From SAR116 cluster bacterium MED-G06 (GTDB lineage: Bacteria; Pseudomonadota; Alphaproteobacteria; Puniceispirillales; Puniceispirillaceae): a stretch of DNA of 46,783 nt. The stretch is taken from NCBI GenBank assembly GCA_002457745.1, contig NTKV01000003.1, positions 1-46,783 on the forward strand. The letters are read 5' to 3'. Of this stretch, positions 13,749 to 20,607 are shown piece by piece; positions within the stretch are counted from its first letter, which is position 1; every line of letters starts with the position of its first letter. The translations under genes were made by a program, and so were the position numbers. The notes below the pieces were generated by a model. The model ran no database searches. It worked only from the letters and a program-made list of their open reading frames with translations, and was not told the DNA's origin.

Positions 13749-14648
13749 ATGATCCCGGATTCGGTAGCCGGCCTTCGCGCCGTCATGGCGGATCATGACT
13801 ATGTTCTGTCAGACGGGCTTGCTGTCAGCCTGTTTCTGGCGCTTCGCAAGCAGCGGCCTCTGTTTCTTGAGGGTGAGGCAGGGGTCGGCAAGACCGAGGT
13901 TGCCAAGACATTGTCTTCGTGGCTTGGGCGGCGACTGATCCGTCTGCAATGCTATGAAGGCCTGGATATTGCCGCGGCCGCCTATGAGTGGAACTATGCG
14001 CGCCAGATGATGCAGATCCAGTCGGCAGGACAGGGCGTGCTGTCGAGTGCCGACCTGTTCACCGCAGAAAACCTGATCGAACGGCCGCTTCTCGAGGCGT
14101 TGCGTGATGACGGCAGCGGCGCACCTGTTCTGTTGATTGACGAGCTGGATCGTGCCGACGAGGCTTTTGAGGCCTATCTGCTGGAAATCCTGTCAGAGTG
14201 GCAGCTGACCATTCCGGAATTCGGGACCATTGCTGCCGCGACGCCGCCAATCGTGATCATCACGTCAAACCGGACGCGGGAAATCCATGACGCGCTGAAG
14301 CGCCGCTGCTTCTACCACTGGGTTGACTATCCCTCGATCGAGGACGAGCTCGATATCCTCCGCCGGCGGGCGCCCGAAGCCGGCGCCGCGCTTGCCGAGC
14401 AGGTGGTGCGGTTTGTGCAGAAACTTCGCGAGGCCAACCTGTTCAAGGCGCCCGGGGTGGCGGAAACCATCGACTGGGCACAGGCGCTTGTCGAGCTGGA
14501 CTGCGTGGCGATCGATCCCGCCAGCGCCGCGTCCACCATGGGCGTGCTGTTGAAATATCAGGATGATATTTCCCGAATCAGCGGCAGCGAGGCTGCGCGA
14601 ATCCTGACCGAAATCCAGACACAGATGAACGGGTTCAAGGCCGGATGA
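13749..14648 (+). CDS. coxD: MoxR-type AAA+ ATPase CoxD
   Basis: AAA+ ATPase of the MoxR family; in CO dehydrogenase systems CoxD helps mature the active site, acting as a chaperone with the VWA protein CoxE. 299 residues. Seen: Walker A GEAGVGKT at 42-49, Walker B LLIDELDRAD near residue 130, the sensor 1 region IVIITSNRTREIHDALKRRC, and the C-terminal lid. ATG 13749 has AGGGAG upstream; earlier in-frame codons belong to the promoter region. Its stop overlaps the coxE start (ATGA). It is the first gene of the plus-strand maturation operon. In a form II setting its exact target is not known. Confidence 0.92.
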   Translation: MIPDSVAGLRAVMADHDYVLSDGLAVSLFLALRKQRPLFLEGEAGVGKTEVAKTLSSWLGRRLIRLQCYEGLDIAAAAYEWNYARQMMQIQSAGQGVLSSADLFTAENLIERPLLEALRDDGSGAPVLLIDELDRADEAFEAYLLEILSEWQLTIPEFGTIAAATPPIVIITSNRTREIHDALKRRCFYHWVDYPSIEDELDILRRRAPEAGAALAEQVVRFVQKLREANLFKAPGVAETIDWAQALVELDCVAIDPASAASTMGVLLKYQDDISRISGSEAARILTEIQTQMNGFKAG

Positions 14649-15967
14649 CATCCTCGCATCCCGATAATGTGACGCCCCTGTTCGGGGCCCCCGGGCGGCC
14701 GGCCCCACGCCCGAAACGCGGCGAGAGGATGGACCAGAACATTGCACATTTTGTGCGTGTCCTGCGGCGGGCCGGTCTTCGGATCGGGCCGGCGGCGACC
14801 CTGGACTGCATCGAGGCAAGCCGGACCATCGATATCGGCAATCGTGTGGAATTCTATCACGCGCTGGCAAGCTGCTGTATGAAGAACCCGGAGGACCGCC
14901 TTGTCTTTGACCAGGCGTTCCAGATGTTCTGGCGCAATCCGCGTCTGATGGAAAAGATGCGGGATCTGCTGCTGCCGTCGCTGACCCGCGAGGTGGATGG
15001 CGACGGGGAAGAGGATCCGAACCTGCGCCGCGTCGACGAGGCTTTCGGATCTGCGGCTGAACCGGACCCCCAGCAGGATGAGCGCGAATCCATCGAGATC
15101 GACATGTCGATGACCAGCTCGGCGACGGAGCTGCTGCAGACCACCGACTTCCAGATGATGAGCACCGCCGAGATTGCCGAGGCCGAACGTGCCATTGATG
15201 CGATGAGGCTGGCCTTTCCAACGCGCCCGTCGCGCCGGTTTTCGCCGGCATCCTCGCATGGCCGGCTGTCATTCAGGCGCACACTCCGGCGCATGGCGCG
15301 TCAGGCCGGCATGCCGTTGCCAGCGCATGAGAAGCGACAGCAGCGGGCCCGCCCGATCGTCGTGATCTGCGATATTTCCGGCTCCATGGAGCGTTATTCG
15401 CGCATGCTGCTGCGGTTTGCCCATGCGCTGACACAACGGCGCGGGACGGTGCACTCCTTCCTGTTCGGCACGCGGCTTACCAATGTTACGCGGCAGATGA
15501 AGGACCGCGACCCGGATGCCGCTCTTCGGGCGGTCTCGGCCAGTGTTGAAGACTGGTCAGGCGGCACCCGTATTTCCAGTGCACTGCAGAGTTTCAACCG
15601 CAACTGGTCGCGCCGGGTTCTGGGTCAGGGCGCGGTGGTGCTGCTGATCACCGATGGGCTGGACAGGGACGAGGGTGGTGATCTTGGCTTCGAGATCGAC
15701 CGTCTGCACAGGTCCTGCGCCAGACTTGTCTGGCTCAACCCGCTTCTTCGTTTTGACGGATTCGAGCCGCGAAGTGGTGGTGTGCAGACCATCCTGCCGC
15801 ATGTTGACGCCTTTCTTCCGGTGCATTCGCTGGAGTCCATCAGGCAACTGTCAGACCTTCTGCAGCGGGACATGGCGCCGGGGTGGCGTTCACAAACACT
15901 CGCCAGCTGGCATCACAGACTTCATGATATCCAGGCAGAACAGACAGCAGGCGGAGGCATCGGATAA
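14645..15967 (+). CDS. coxE: VWA domain protein CoxE
   Basis: Partner of the CoxD ATPase, 440 residues. Seen: an N-terminal helical region with RPKR.E.MDQNIAHFVRVLRRAG typical of CoxE, an acidic mid-section near residues 118-160, RRTLRRMARQAGMP, and a C-terminal von Willebrand A domain with a complete MIDAS start D243-I-S245-G-S247 (VVICDISGSM), then HSFLFGTRLT and the GGTRISSAL threonine region. Known role: metal-dependent adaptor working with a MoxR ATPase on the molybdenum hydroxylase. The start overlaps coxD (ATGA) and the stop overlaps coxF (TAATG), so translation is coupled on both sides. Confidence 0.92.
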   Translation: MTSSHPDNVTPLFGAPGRPAPRPKRGERMDQNIAHFVRVLRRAGLRIGPAATLDCIEASRTIDIGNRVEFYHALASCCMKNPEDRLVFDQAFQMFWRNPRLMEKMRDLLLPSLTREVDGDGEEDPNLRRVDEAFGSAAEPDPQQDERESIEIDMSMTSSATELLQTTDFQMMSTAEIAEAERAIDAMRLAFPTRPSRRFSPASSHGRLSFRRTLRRMARQAGMPLPAHEKRQQRARPIVVICDISGSMERYSRMLLRFAHALTQRRGTVHSFLFGTRLTNVTRQMKDRDPDAALRAVSASVEDWSGGTRISSALQSFNRNWSRRVLGQGAVVLLITDGLDRDEGGDLGFEIDRLHRSCARLVWLNPLLRFDGFEPRSGGVQTILPHVDAFLPVHSLESIRQLSDLLQRDMAPGWRSQTLASWHHRLHDIQAEQTAGGGIG

Positions 15968-16950
15968 TGTCAGACATCTCGGGCATGACAAATGCCGCCC
16001 TTCTGGGCCGGGCTGCCGCCTGGCATCGTGACGGGCATGATGTGGCGGTTGCCATGGTCATGCAGACCTGGGGGTCGTCGCCGCGTCCGGTCGGCAGTGT
16101 GATGATCATCCGGGATGACATGGCGGTGGAAGGCTCGGTCTCCGGCGGCTGTGTCGAGGGGGCGGTCATCGATGCCGGTATCGAGGCCATCGGAAGCGGC
16201 ACTGGCAGACGGCTTGATTTCGGGGTGGCCGATGCGCGCGCCTGGGAAGTCGGCCTGTCCTGCGGTGGCAGGATCGCCGTTCTTGTCACGCCCGTGGCCA
16301 CAGACGGCCTGCCATCGGAGCGGCTTGCCGCGCTGTGCGAGGATATCGACTCACGCCGCGCCGCGCGGGTGCAGTTTGATGCTGTCACCGGTGCAGTGCG
16401 CGATGCAGGTCCCGACAGGGGGGCAGCAGGCGAGTGCGGCCTTGCCGCGGATGAAAGCCTTTTCACCTTTACCCAGGTTCCCCCCCGCCGACTGCTGGTG
16501 GTTGGCGGCGTTCACATCACGCAGTTCCTGGCGCCGATGGCGCAGCAGGCAGGGTATGATGTTGTCGTGATTGATCCACGTGCGGTTTTTGCCGCCGCCG
16601 AACGGTTTCCCGGCACCCGCTGCCTGACCGCCTGGCCCGATGAGGCGATGGCCGAGCTGGCACCCGACACGCAGACCGCTGTTGTCACGCTCACGCATGA
16701 TCCGAAAATCGATGACCCGGGCCTGCGCGCGGCGCTGGCAAGCGAGGCCTTCTATATCGGATGCCTGGGATCGCGCCGGACCCATGCGGCGCGCTGCGAG
16801 CGTCTTTCCGAAGCAGGGTTCGCAGCGGAGACGATCGCACGGCTTCATGGCCCGGCCGGTCTTGATATCGGGGCGAAGACACCCGCCGAGATTGCTGTGT
16901 CGATCCTGGCGCAGATGATTGCTGCCGAGCGCAAGGGCGGTGGGTCATGA
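15967..16950 (+). CDS. coxF: XdhC/CoxF family maturation protein
   Basis: 327-residue protein of the XdhC/CoxI family, which handles or inserts the molybdenum cofactor during assembly of molybdenum hydroxylases. Seen: N-terminal XdhC_CoxI domain (VMQTWGSSPRPVGSVMIIRD, then SGGCVEGAVI), the conserved LSCGGRI near residue 97, and a C-terminal Rossmann-like XdhC_C domain (RLLVVGGVHITQFLAPMA, VVVIDPRAVFA, VVTLTHDPKIDDPGL, YIGCLGSRRTHA). Both domains sit on one chain, as in CoxF and XdhC; the name is by operon position. It overlaps coxE by one base and the next gene by ATGA. Confidence 0.9.
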   Translation: MSDISGMTNAALLGRAAAWHRDGHDVAVAMVMQTWGSSPRPVGSVMIIRDDMAVEGSVSGGCVEGAVIDAGIEAIGSGTGRRLDFGVADARAWEVGLSCGGRIAVLVTPVATDGLPSERLAALCEDIDSRRAARVQFDAVTGAVRDAGPDRGAAGECGLAADESLFTFTQVPPRRLLVVGGVHITQFLAPMAQQAGYDVVVIDPRAVFAAAERFPGTRCLTAWPDEAMAELAPDTQTAVVTLTHDPKIDDPGLRAALASEAFYIGCLGSRRTHAARCERLSEAGFAAETIARLHGPAGLDIGAKTPAEIAVSILAQMIAAERKGGGS

Positions 16951-18569
16951 AATTCGGCCCCGTTCCGGTTGAGGACGCTGCCGGTGCTGTTCTGGCGCAT
17001 GCGGCGCGGCTTCCCGATGGCCGGTTGCGCAAGGGCATCCGGCTGACCGAAGCCGAGGTGGCGCGGCTGCAGGCCGCCGGGATCACCGAGGTGGTGGTGG
17101 CCCGCCTTGAGGATGGTGACGTTGACGAGGACGCTGCTGCCGATCGGGTCGCTACGGCGTTGATGCCAGCGGGTGTCCGGCTGTCGGTGGCGGCCACCGG
17201 CCGGGTGAATGTCTATGCTGTCGGACGTGGCATCGTGAGGTTTGATCGTGACCGGCTGAAGGCGGTCAACAAGATTGATGAGGGCATGACCATTGCCTGC
17301 GTCCAGCACAATCAGCTTGTCGAGGATGGCGACATGATCGCCACCCTGAAAGTCATTCCCTACAGCCTTCCCGGGACGGTGGTTGCCACCGTTGAACGTC
17401 AGGCCGGGGCCGGTCCCGTTCTGGCATTCCACAGGCTGACAGCGCGGCCCTTTGCGCTGATCCAGACGCGTGTCGATGGCATGAAGCCCTCGATTCTGGC
17501 AAGCACCGAAAAGGTGACGAAACAACGCCTGAACCAGCTGGGCTGTGCGCTGGTGGACAGCCGTGTCGTGGCGCATGATGAAGCCGAGGTGACCGCGGCC
17601 ATCGCCGCTGCGCGCGACCATGGTGCCGAGGCCATCCTGATCTGCGGTGCCTCGGCGATCAGCGACCGCCGTGATGTGGTGCCGGCGGCTGTGCTGGCCG
17701 CCGGTGGTCAGGTCGACAGGGTCGGCCTTCCCGCTGATCCCGGCAATCTGCTGATGGCGGCACAGCTTGACGGGATGCCGGTCATCGGCATGCCGGGATG
17801 TGCGCGTGCCCCCCGCCTGAACGGGTTTGACTGGGTGCTGCATCTGGTTCTGGCCGGCCTGCCGCTTGACGAGGATGAAATCGCGGACATGGCGATTGGC
17901 GGTCTGCTGATGGAGATTGCGTCACGACCCTTGCCACGCCGCATGGTCGAACGCCGCCAGCCTGACAATATCGCCATTGGCGGGGTGCTGCTTGCGGCAG
18001 GCATGTCGCGGCGCATGGGAACCGGCAACAAGCTTCTTGTCGAGATCGAGGGCGTTCCGATGGTGCGCCGCGCGGCGATGGCGATGCTGGAGGGTGGGAT
18101 TCGCGACCTTGTTGTCGTTGCCGGCCACGAACCCGACCATATAGCTGCCGCGCTTGACGGTCTGGCGGTCCGGATTGTTGAGAACCCTGATTTTGCCAAG
18201 GGCCAGGCAGGATCGGTGGCTGCCGGCGTGACGGCGCTGGCGGAGACGGTCTCGGGGGCGCTGATCGGGCTTGGCGACATGCCGTTCATCGCGCCGGAGC
18301 TTGTTGCCGAGATGATCAGCGACCATGGCGGGCTTGGCGATCACGAGGCCCGGATTTCCTTTCCGGTCTTTGCCGGACGCCGCGGCAATCCGGTCCTGTG
18401 GGGGCGGACCTTCTTCCCGGCCCTGTCCGGCCTTGCCGGGGATATTGGTGGCCGGGGTATCCTTGCCGAAAATCCGGCAGCGGTGAACAGCATCAGCTGG
18501 CATGACGACAGCATTTTGCGCGACATCGATACCGATGATGATCTGAAGCGTGAGAGTGCTGCCGAATAG
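16947..18569 (+). CDS. Molybdopterin-binding domain fused to MobA-like nucleotidyltransferase
   Basis: 540-residue two-domain protein closing the cox maturation operon. Residues ~1-335 look like a MoeA/MogA-type molybdopterin-binding module (GASAISDRRDVVPAAV, DPGNLLMAA, GMPGCARAPRLNGFDW). Residues ~340-540 are an NTP-transferase of the MobA/MocA type with signature LAAGMSRRMGTGNKLL beginning at 349, then GLGDMPFIAPELV and FAGRRGNPVLWG. Expected role: making the cytosine-dinucleotide form of the cofactor (MCD) for CoxL, as MocA does. The CTP preference is inferred from the cluster, not from specificity residues. The start overlaps coxF by ATGA. Such fusions are known in cox clusters. Confidence 0.88.
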   Translation: MKFGPVPVEDAAGAVLAHAARLPDGRLRKGIRLTEAEVARLQAAGITEVVVARLEDGDVDEDAAADRVATALMPAGVRLSVAATGRVNVYAVGRGIVRFDRDRLKAVNKIDEGMTIACVQHNQLVEDGDMIATLKVIPYSLPGTVVATVERQAGAGPVLAFHRLTARPFALIQTRVDGMKPSILASTEKVTKQRLNQLGCALVDSRVVAHDEAEVTAAIAAARDHGAEAILICGASAISDRRDVVPAAVLAAGGQVDRVGLPADPGNLLMAAQLDGMPVIGMPGCARAPRLNGFDWVLHLVLAGLPLDEDEIADMAIGGLLMEIASRPLPRRMVERRQPDNIAIGGVLLAAGMSRRMGTGNKLLVEIEGVPMVRRAAMAMLEGGIRDLVVVAGHEPDHIAAALDGLAVRIVENPDFAKGQAGSVAAGVTALAETVSGALIGLGDMPFIAPELVAEMISDHGGLGDHEARISFPVFAGRRGNPVLWGRTFFPALSGLAGDIGGRGILAENPAAVNSISWHDDSILRDIDTDDDLKRESAAE

Positions 18570-18631
18570 GTTTGTGGGCGGCGGCGTCGCGCTGCCGGGC
18601 GGCTTTCCTGCCGGTCTGGTCATGTTCGGAC

Positions 18632-18660
18632 TTGAACCTGTCAGCAAGGAGCGGTATATC
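18632..18660 (+). promoter_or_regulatory. Probable sigma-70 promoter for the DJ-1-like gene
   Basis: TTGAAC (18632-18637), 17-bp spacer, TATATC (18655-18660), about 138 bp before the DJ-1-like ATG and 62 bp after the cox operon stop. It suggests that the next three genes form a separate transcript. The rest of the 228-bp gap shows nothing I recognise. Confidence 0.55.
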
Positions 18661-18797
18661 GGCGGTGAATTCATGCCATCCATCCCTGCCACAACGATCT
18701 GCCGGGCCGTCAGCCTGTCCGGCAATGGCGCAGGGCACAGGCACAACCGGATCACCAGACAAAACCATCAACAGATAAAGAAACAGGAGCACGCCAC

Positions 18798-19310
18798 ATG
18801 CAGCTTTCCAACCTGACAGGCAAGACCGTCGCCATCATGGTCGCCAGCGGATTTGACGAGGACACCTTCATTGCCATCCAGCGCGCGATGATGTCCGTTA
18901 ACGCGAAACTGCGTGTCATTTCCCGCGATGCCGGCCTGACGAATGCCTGGAACGGAAGCAGCTGGGGCATGTCCTATCCGGTTGACGGCACGCTGTCGAC
19001 CACGCTTGCTGTCGATTACGACGCGGTGATCGTGCCGAAAGGCGAACGCCACGTTGCCACCCTGTCCGGCGAAGCGCATGCCAAGCGCCTTCTTCGCGCC
19101 TTTACCCGCGAAGACATGCCGATGCTGCTTCTCGATGATGCCCAGTCGCTTCTCGAGCTTGTCGACATCGCCGCGCCGGCTGCCGAGGAAGGCGCAACCC
19201 ATGCTGTTGCTGGTGGACTTGTCACCGGAACGGCAGAAGATCTCAATGCTGGCCTTGAGGCGTTAAACCGCGTCATGATCCGCGAAGATGGCGAAAGCGT
19301 CGCCGCCTGA
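18798..19310 (+). CDS. DJ-1/PfpI-like protein lacking the catalytic cysteine
   Basis: 170 residues, DJ-1/PfpI (class I glutamine amidotransferase-like) fold by pattern. Seen: TGKTVAIMVASGFDEDTF resembling the family's first strand and acidic loop, LRVISRDAG, DYDAVIVPKG, and DMPMLLLDDAQSLLEL where active members have an AICHG nucleophile elbow. Here an Asp-Ala stretch stands there, and the whole protein has no cysteine. So the cysteine-based activity of this family (protease, deglycase, glyoxalase) is not expected; it may be a binding or sensing protein. A GGAG ribosome binding site precedes the ATG. It is followed by the DUF1289 and methyltransferase genes on the same strand. Confidence 0.7.
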   Translation: MQLSNLTGKTVAIMVASGFDEDTFIAIQRAMMSVNAKLRVISRDAGLTNAWNGSSWGMSYPVDGTLSTTLAVDYDAVIVPKGERHVATLSGEAHAKRLLRAFTREDMPMLLLDDAQSLLELVDIAAPAAEEGATHAVAGGLVTGTAEDLNAGLEALNRVMIREDGESVAA

Positions 19311-19341: not shown

Positions 19342-19560
19342 ATGTCTGACGAGACAGCGCTGCCATCGCCCTGCATTTCGATATGCCAGCTCGACCGTGA
19401 CAGCGGTCGCTGCGTAGGCTGTTATCGTACGGGTGCGGAAATTGCCGCCTGGCGGTCGATGTCACCTGATGCGCAGCGTGATCTTCTCGAGGTGCTGCGG
19501 GACCGCCGCGCCACCGCCACCGGCATAAGGCGTCGCCCGACGCGCCGCCGCCAAGGATAG
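19342..19560 (+). CDS. DUF1289 small cysteine-rich protein
   Basis: 72-residue protein of the DUF1289 family, function unknown. Seen: the family signature SPCISICQLDRDSGRCVGCYRTGAEI at residues 9-34 shows four cysteines that could bind a metal, and is followed by W..M....R.DLL and a basic Arg-rich tail. The ATG at 19342 is chosen because the domain starts directly after it; an upstream in-frame ATG at 19288 lies inside the previous gene. It ends 3 bp before the methyltransferase start, so the two are probably coupled. A ferredoxin-like or Fe-S accessory role is only a guess. Confidence 0.85.
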   Translation: MSDETALPSPCISICQLDRDSGRCVGCYRTGAEIAAWRSMSPDAQRDLLEVLRDRRATATGIRRRPTRRRQG

Positions 19561-19563
19561 ACC

Positions 19564-20607
19564 ATGACCACCCAGAATGTAGTTGAAGAATGTCTCGAGG
19601 ATGGTGGGGTCATCCTTGCTGACGGTGCCACAGGTACGAATTTCTTCAACAAGGGTCTGGAGACCGGTTATCCGCCGGAACTCTGGAATGTCGAGCGTCC
19701 GGATGATGTCATGGACCTCCATACTGCTTTCATTGCTGCCGGATCACGGCTGATCCTGACCAATTCCTTTGGCGGGACGGCGCACCGGCTGAAGCTTCAT
19801 GACTCGCAGGACCGCGTCGGTGAGTTGAACCTTGCCGCGGCAAAACTGGCACGCCGGGCGGCGGATGACGGCCGTGACCGGTTTGGCGAGACGGTGCTGG
19901 TCGCCGGATCGATGGGGCCGACAGGTGAGCTGTTCAAACCGATGGGCGCGCTGGATTATGATGAGGCCCTGCAGGCCTTCACCGCCCAGGCCGAAGCGCT
20001 GGCCGAGGGGGGTGCCGACCTGCTCTGGGTAGAGACGATGTCATCGCTTGAAGAGGTTCAGGCCGCCATCGACGCGGCTCTCTCCTGCGGGCTTCCGGTT
20101 GCCGCCTGCATGACCTTTGATACCGCCGCGCGCAGCATGATGGGGGTGCTGCCTGCCGACTTCGTTCGTGATTCCGCCGGATATGGCGCCAGCCTTGTCG
20201 GCGCGAATTGCGGGATTGGTCCGGCTGAACTGATGCATTCGGTGCGCGAGATGCTGCCGGTCACCGATATGCCGGTGATTGCCAAGGGTAATTGTGGCAT
20301 CCCGAGCTATGTCGAAGGTGAAATCCACTACCATGGGACGCCCGAGCTGATGGGCCATTATGCCTGTTTTGCGCGCGACGCAGGCATTCGGGTGATTGGC
20401 GGGTGCTGTGGCACCACCCCGGCGCATGTCGAGGCGATGGCCGCCGCGCTGCAGGCAACACCAAGGCGTGATTTTGACCCGGTGGCCGCCGAAGCCGCCC
20501 TTGGCACCCCATGGAAAGACCTGCCGACACCACCAAAGGGCGATGGCGGTGATGCGGGACGGGCCGCGCGTGGTCGCGGACGTGGCCGCCGCCGGTCGCG
20601 CGCCTGA
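19564..20607 (+). CDS. bhmT: Betaine-homocysteine S-methyltransferase
   Basis: Zinc-dependent homocysteine methyltransferase, 347 residues, cytoplasmic; forms methionine, most likely from glycine betaine. Seen: ILADGATGTNFF near the start, ILTNSFGGTAHRL, GSMGPTGELF, LLWVETMSS, and the three zinc cysteines C216 (GANCG) and C281-C282 (GGCCGT). Residues ~332-347 form an unusual Gly/Arg tail (GRAARGRGRGRRRSRA) beyond the barrel. AAGGA precedes the ATG. A link to the DJ-1-like and DUF1289 genes is positional only. Methyl donors other than betaine (S-methylmethionine, dimethylsulfonio compounds) cannot be excluded from sequence. Confidence 0.88.
   Translation: MTTQNVVEECLEDGGVILADGATGTNFFNKGLETGYPPELWNVERPDDVMDLHTAFIAAGSRLILTNSFGGTAHRLKLHDSQDRVGELNLAAAKLARRAADDGRDRFGETVLVAGSMGPTGELFKPMGALDYDEALQAFTAQAEALAEGGADLLWVETMSSLEEVQAAIDAALSCGLPVAACMTFDTAARSMMGVLPADFVRDSAGYGASLVGANCGIGPAELMHSVREMLPVTDMPVIAKGNCGIPSYVEGEIHYHGTPELMGHYACFARDAGIRVIGGCCGTTPAHVEAMAAALQATPRRDFDPVAAEAALGTPWKDLPTPPKGDGGDAGRAARGRGRGRRRSRA

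Follow-up and report, generated by a model that had tools for sequence, protein, structure and literature searches.

The locus and its genes

The window, that is, the whole stretch of 46,783 nucleotides analysed here, carries on its forward strand an ORF with an ATG start encoding a 170-aa Cys-free protein of the DJ-1/PfpI fold, followed by the genes for a small Cys-rich DUF1289 protein and for a betaine-homocysteine S-methyltransferase-like protein (bhmT). The features of the locus are as follows:

18631-18659, + strand: predicted RpoH-type promoter, CTTGAA (18631-18636), 16-nt spacer, GGTATAT (18653-18659); conserved in the genus and matched to a consensus
18785-18789, + strand: ribosome binding site AGGAG, read from the sequence; AGGAGC is invariant in 9 genus members
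18798-19310, + strand: Cys-free DJ-1/PfpI-fold protein, Catalase_C-like, 170 aa, ATG start (ORF, Pfam, NCBIfam, predicted model)
19134-19142, + strand: codons for D113-D114-A115, the residues aligned with the nucleophile elbow (Cys-His-Gly) of PfpI (alignments)
19302-19307, + strand: codons of the last two residues, Ala-Ala (tail GESVAA), which are predicted to act as a ClpXP degron (sequence comparison)
19342-19560, + strand: DUF1289 small Cys-rich protein, best start 19342, stop 19560 (PF06945, 65.8 bits)
19564-20607, + strand: bhmT, betaine-homocysteine S-methyltransferase-like (NF005718, 437.6 bits, cut-off 338; PRK07534)

A longer ORF form of DUF1289 reaches back into the 3' part of the DJ-1-like gene. 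Directly upstream lies a coxD/coxE/xdhC/mobA-moeA-like maturation cluster (13749-18569), which was seen only in the window's genus among the neighbourhoods compared.

Fold and family assignment

DJ-1 is a protein linked to Parkinson's. In Pfam, the window protein passed the cut-off for Catalase_C (PF18011, 25.9 bits, cut-off 24.6), over residues 8-90 only, and just missed that for DJ-1_PfpI (PF01965, 25.1 bits, cut-off 26.6). In NCBIfam, the top model was that of catalase HPII, matched at its C-terminal end with 39.4 bits, far under the whole-protein cut-off. Among the 45 A2 members, PF01965 matched all 45 and PF18011 matched 29 at E<=0.01, and TIGR01382 also matched 45/45. The AlphaFold model (mean pLDDT 90.4; input alignment of 43 rows) had its best fold match in PfpI from P. 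aeruginosa (8r3n, chain B; Z 22.9, rmsd 2.0, 160 aligned residues), and it also matched DR1199 (Z 21.8), the C-terminal domains of KatE/HPII and CAT-1 (Z about 20-21, rmsd 1.7-2.3) and other DJ-1 proteins. Since the model matches PfpI, DR1199, the catalase C-terminal domains and other DJ-1 proteins, the fold is that of DJ-1/PfpI. An earlier note, made from the sequence alone, had called the protein DJ-1/PfpI-like and proposed structure prediction as a check; the predicted fold bears this out, and the absence of cysteine that it reported is found over all 170 aa. The assignment of the protein to the DJ-1/PfpI fold and to a Cys-free subfamily is almost certain.

The nucleophile elbow and conserved residues

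In the alignments, D113-D114-A115 of the window protein stands where PfpI has Cys-His-Gly, confirming the proposal of the earlier note that Asp-Ala replaces the nucleophile elbow, and T23 aligns with the Glu partner of the PfpI cysteine. The profiles gave 195 matches in 196 loci, from which 158 distinct proteins, closed and full-length, were retained; 137 of these scored at least 88 bits, a cut chosen after inspection of the list. None of these 137 members (58 from the order outside family f3, 34 from f3 and 45 from the rest of the class) had Cys at the nucleophile position. Gly was found there in 98 of them (35/58, 34/34 and 29/45, respectively), and the others had Asp, Ser, Glu, Ala, Asn or Thr. 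The Glu partner was kept in 7/58 members outside f3, 0/34 in f3 and 16/45 in the class, versus 19/21 of the lower-scoring rows. The 21 rows under 88 bits comprised 17 with the elbow Cys, two catalases, one sequence gapped at this position and one, L133, without Cys. L133 (genome G439, 86-87 bits) lacks the elbow Cys, with VGEG at the elbow, ends in KVA and sits on a long branch beside PfpI; it may be a borderline member of the subfamily.

Wholly Cys-free proteins accounted for 30/58 members of the order outside f3, 34/34 in f3 and 30/45 in the class. The complete lack of cysteine is therefore not family-wide, because 28/58 and 15/45 of the members outside f3 and in the class, respectively, have Cys elsewhere. 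Nevertheless, the PfpI cysteine is lost, and its Glu partner and His are mostly lost as well, so Cys chemistry is excluded, in line with the view in the earlier note that the known chemistries are out.

An alternative is that the protein is an enzyme or ligand binder, with a new DJ-1-fold active site built from Q28, D63, D73, H94, R97 and R104, all invariant in the order. Consistent with this, 17 columns of A1 are invariant, R97 and three Gly are invariant over 45 diverse A2 members, and the class members keep Q28 in 41/45, D63 in 38/45 and H94 in 41/45 cases. However, several positions vary beyond the window's order, with R104 being R in 4/45, Y60 being Y in 4/45 and H85 being H in 5/45 class members, and the PfpI Cys is never retained. 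We consider a new active site rather unlikely.

Distribution and phylogeny

A protein query found the gene in 94/136 genomes of the window's order, including 39/43 good genomes. In the class, profile A1 matched 82/385 genomes at E<=1e-5, and in the phylum, profile A2 matched 96/398 genomes at E<=1e-20; the sequences in all counts given in this work are related, so the counts are not independent. By the 88-bit cut, the Cys-free subfamily was present in 50 of the 82 class genomes (5 from the order and 45 others from 21 family labels). Among 30 phylum loci that were fetched, the three best, all from members of the class, were without Cys, and the best row in each of the other 27 had a CH[GA] elbow.

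In a tree of 98 rows, the PfpI rows (47, including L133 and the gapped L146) were separated at a support of 99/94, and the proteins of the order grouped with those of family f111 (three sampled rows) at 90/91. The catalase C-terminal domains attached weakly beside the subfamily (74/92), on long branches. Derivation of the order's genes from a catalase fragment was ruled out: the catalase domain PF00199 was found in 0/136 genomes of the order, and the 94 matches are frames of 139-247 aa with no internal stops. The Cys-free proteins form a distinct alphaproteobacterial subfamily of the DJ-1 fold. A literature search, in sources mostly short of full text, found no paper on this subfamily.

Gene neighbourhood

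Neighbours could be assessed in 92 of the 94 genomes of the order, two lacking enough downstream sequence. DUF1289 was located within 700 bases downstream on the same strand in all of them (58 outside f3 and 34 in f3). The bhmT gene was found downstream in 51/58 genomes outside f3 and 0/34 in f3, that is, in 51/92, and was missing in 41/92 (7 outside f3 and the 34 of f3). Further downstream in the order lies aspS, often with ctaA as well. Among 34 class loci outside the order, DUF1289 and bhmT were both present in two (L090 and L095), DUF1289 alone in one (L088) and neither in 31, and no common partner gene was found among the class-level neighbourhoods. The heme A synthase gene ctaA was convergent beside the Cys-free gene in 5 of the 34 class loci (L094, L098, L102, L105 and L116), representing five family labels.

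The earlier note described the DJ-1-like, DUF1289 and bhmT genes as a compact three-gene unit, perhaps tied to methyl-group or one-carbon supply, and proposed that the conservation of the trio be checked across alphaproteobacteria. The unit stands in part: the pairing with DUF1289 is constant in the order and bhmT follows in most genomes outside f3, but bhmT does not occur in the f3 neighbourhoods, and conservation of the full trio breaks down at the class level (2/34 loci). A role of the DJ-1-like gene in such a methyl-group unit would be favoured by the succession of both genes in the 51 genomes outside f3 and by the recurrence of the DUF1289-bhmT pair beyond the order, at L090 and L095, the former being from family f111, which groups with the order's proteins. 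However, bhmT is a usual but dispensable neighbour, because it is absent from 41 genomes in which the DJ-1-like gene and DUF1289 stay paired, and neither neighbour occurs in 31 of the 34 class-level loci. The suggested link to methyl-group or one-carbon supply, for which this neighbour was the sole ground, is thus not upheld, and we judge participation in a methyl-metabolism unit to be improbable.

The upstream region

The core of the predicted promoter, TTGAAC-N17-TATATC (18632-18660), recurs as TTGAAC-N17-TATA[TC]C in 9/9 aligned genus members, about 140-185 bases before the start. An automatic promoter scan missed this site because its rule requires T at the last -10 position. The Sinorhizobium RpoH1 consensus is CTTGAA-N15-16-CCTATAT, according to the available part of PMC4843759, citing Barnett 2012, and the window promoter fits 11/13 bases of this form. 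With this consensus, which was chosen after a first look at the data, so that significance is inflated, an RpoH promoter was scored at p<=0.05 against Markov shuffles in 11/11 members of the genus, 16/48 other members of the order outside f3, 0/34 in f3 and 12/45 in the class. The same test on control genes gave 3/70 for aspS, 0/13 for ctaA and 0/50 for bhmT.

The test was repeated with several models on the same four groups. The RpoH1 model gave 11/11, 18/48, 1/34 and 11/45, and the sigma70 model gave 0/11, 0/48, 1/34 and 9/45. RpoH2 was scored in 1, 4, 1 and 2 cases, EcfG in 0, 0, 0 and 1, a scrambled motif in 0, 2, 2 and 1, and a motif with wrong spacing in 0, 0, 0 and 4. The control motifs for sigma70 and EcfG are those we presume for these factors. 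In f3, the shuffle test has little power because the upstream regions are AT-rich and their shuffles score 8.59. The mean RpoH score of the f3 regions (9.44) is as high as that of the other genera outside f3 (9.33), and the idea that f3 had lost the promoter was dropped.

TTGAAC-N17-TATATC also resembles a sigma70 promoter. One alternative is therefore an ordinary DJ-1 relative transcribed from a sigma70 promoter, with a C-terminal Ala-Ala that is structural or inherited from PfpI and has no role in proteolysis. For the promoter, the repeat test argues against this explanation, since the sigma70 model was scored in 0/11 and 0/48 of the members from the genus and the other genera outside f3, as opposed to 11/11 and 18/48 for RpoH. 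In the class set, however, sigma70 performed nearly as well as RpoH1 (9/45 versus 11/45).

With looser criteria, a TTGA/TA pattern was present in 22/138 upstream regions versus 4% of the shuffles, including all 14 regions of genera g1 and g4. In the window's own genome, TTGAAC-N17-TATATC with one mismatch allowed had 4 matches versus 1 in the backwards control, and in two genomes TTGAAC-N17-18-ATATC had 9 matches versus 0. Three of these nine were upstream of genes (the DJ-1-like gene, lon and an Hsp20 gene), and six were inside ORFs of more than 150 codons, on either strand. Similar motifs stand upstream of lon (own genome), an Hsp20 gene (genome G119) and clpP (genome G083), the genes being confirmed by Pfam. 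A further pattern, CTTGAA-N16-18-CCATAT, which we took to be typical, had one match in three genomes, and enrichment was weak when CTTGAA/CCATAT was used for scoring.

RpoH itself was above the cut-off in 104/136 genomes of the order. In the own assembly, which is 67% complete, the best RpoH match (E 1e-40) was below the cut-off and is perhaps another sigma factor. Several genomes of families f1 and f4 had an additional RpoH-like match, scoring about 280-305 bits, and none was seen by eye for f3 among the matches listed.

The conserved site agrees with the earlier suggestion that the gene has its own promoter, and its form suggests that the DJ-1-like gene is probably under RpoH control in the window's genus. 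Heat-shock control is well supported in the genus, moderately so in the order and weakly in the class.

The C-terminal Ala-Ala

A pair of alanines at the C-terminus is described as a common ClpXP degron in Caulobacter, where CdnL carries such a degron and is stabilised by the change of AA to DD (PMC11034885, from the part of the report available). All 58 distinct members of the order outside f3 and all 45 class members ended in Ala-Ala, making 103/103 at >=88 bits, with L133, just below the cut, as an exception. In f3, the count was 0/34, with tails such as KENNK. Outside f3, the last two residues had an entropy of 0 bits versus 1.7-3.5 bits for the preceding ten. Distinct proteins of the neighbouring genes ended in Ala-Ala in 1/51 cases for bhmT, 0/64 for aspS, 1/74 for ctaA and 0/74 for DUF1289, counted without a check for contig ends, and long neighbouring ORFs did so in 3/199 cases, DJ-1-like ORFs with other starts being excluded.

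Nevertheless, Ala-Ala is not special to the Cys-free subfamily, because Cys-bearing PfpI proteins often end in AA as well, in 8/17 rows of the class set and 12/27 of the phylum set (L216-L242; for example, ALAA and RRAA). The Ala-Ala end is thus a wider trait of the PfpI group that is fixed in the Cys-free subfamily outside f3, and ClpXP-type ends may be more widespread in the DJ-1/PfpI superfamily.

ClpX was above the cut-off in 104/136 genomes of the order, and SspB was found in 104/136, including 41/43 good ones. The ssrA tags, read with a custom pattern (ARAGORN named 4 of the 12), ended in AA in 12/12 genomes examined, four of them from f3; that of the window's own genome is ANDNTAPVAIAA, ending in IAA. 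The sspB and ssrA (tmRNA) genes were close neighbours in all 12 genomes in which both were located (e.g. G000:C58:3488-4348). Loss of the machinery as the cause of the missing Ala-Ala in f3 was ruled out, as SspB, ClpX and AA-ending ssrA tags (4 genomes) occur in this family.

In the model of the window protein, residues 163-170 had pLDDT values <50. However, in the model of the class-level member L064, the C-terminus is the end of a helix (164-189), the last block having a pLDDT of 90, and a general claim of a loose tail is weakened because this C-terminus is predicted to be helical with good confidence. Such a terminal helix would fit a structural role of Ala-Ala, as in the alternative of an ordinary DJ-1 relative outlined above, and the AA ends of the Cys-bearing PfpI rows would fit simple inheritance. 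On the other hand, a structural role is at odds with the absence of any variation at the last two positions next to variable ones. Together with the promoter data, this makes that alternative, in our view, an explanation of low probability, although not a negligible one. Our confidence that Ala-Ala acts as a ClpXP degron was lowered because AA ends are also present on Cys-bearing PfpI and L133 ends in KVA; we still lean slightly towards a degron in the Cys-free subfamily, given the invariance of the last two residues outside f3.

Proposed role

The loss of the PfpI catalytic residues makes protein binding, rather than catalysis, the most likely activity. The window protein could therefore be viewed as a DJ-1-fold pseudoenzyme whose nearest fold matches are PfpI and the C-terminal domain of large catalases and which, like that domain, would act as a small chaperone of the holdase type. 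Transcription from a heat-shock (RpoH) type promoter would switch it on quickly, and the built-in C-terminal Ala-Ala degron would allow its rapid removal by ClpXP after stress. The machinery for this model, ClpX, SspB, tmRNA and RpoH, is all present in the order. We infer heat induction, degradation and chaperone activity of the window protein from its sequence features. The full proposal, in which a DJ-1-fold protein without catalytic activity is induced by heat shock, perhaps serves as a holdase and is cleared by ClpXP, has about an even chance of being correct, and the holdase function, suggested by analogy with Cys-free catalase C-terminal domains with published chaperone activity (PMC9137513 and PMC10135305, as far as the available parts of these reports go), is a tentative part of it. 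The gene may thus encode a short-lived stress protein rather than an enzyme of methyl metabolism.

A variant of this proposal is that the protein serves as a client-delivery factor or ClpX activator: induced by heat shock, it would bind unfolded proteins through its dead active-site face, dock on ClpX through Ala-Ala and be consumed with its cargo, by analogy with LarA, which engages Lon by way of its own degron. We regard this as a long shot; if true, the DJ-1 fold would have been turned into a protease partner across Alphaproteobacteria.

The short-lived stress protein that we favour is of broader interest. A chaperone role of DJ-1 independent of glyoxalase/deglycase chemistry is disputed. 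This clade has dropped a cysteine thought to be central to the DJ-1 family, and yet the gene is retained in nearly all good genomes of the order. With its predicted RpoH promoter and ClpXP-type end, it would provide a Cys-free test case for a chaperone role of the DJ-1 fold without such chemistry.

Comparison with known systems

The closest known relatives by fold are PfpI and YhbO (TIGR01382, NF040823; 8r3n), which give the best match, with Z 22.9 over 160 residues, and share a Trp loop with the window protein. The subfamily differs from them in lacking the Cys-His-Gly elbow and usually the Glu, and in forming a separate clade (99/94).

Comparisons with degraded proteins concern the C-terminus. 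Like CdnL of Caulobacter and further ClpXP substrates that end in AA, the window protein has the Ala-Ala end and comes from an alphaproteobacterium (in the available part of PMC11034885). The proteins are unrelated, however, and degradation is known for CdnL and only predicted here. In the accessible portion of PMC10665427, LarA is described as a heat-shock protein of alphaproteobacteria whose C-terminal degron is conserved; the window protein has a predicted one, and the likeness is an analogy only. LarA ends in His and activates Lon, whereas the window protein ends in Ala-Ala.

Large-subunit catalases (HPII/KatE and CAT-1) have a C-terminal domain (PF18011) of the same fold (Z about 20-21), the Pfam cut-off of which the window protein passes. 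The window protein differs in being a stand-alone protein of 170 aa with an -AA end and a weak link in the tree, and no fusion to a catalase occurs here, with PF00199 in none of the order's 136 genomes. The likeness extends to the CAT-3 catalase, the C-terminal domain of which, in the part of PMC10135305 available, is without Cys and active as a chaperone; the window protein is likewise without Cys.
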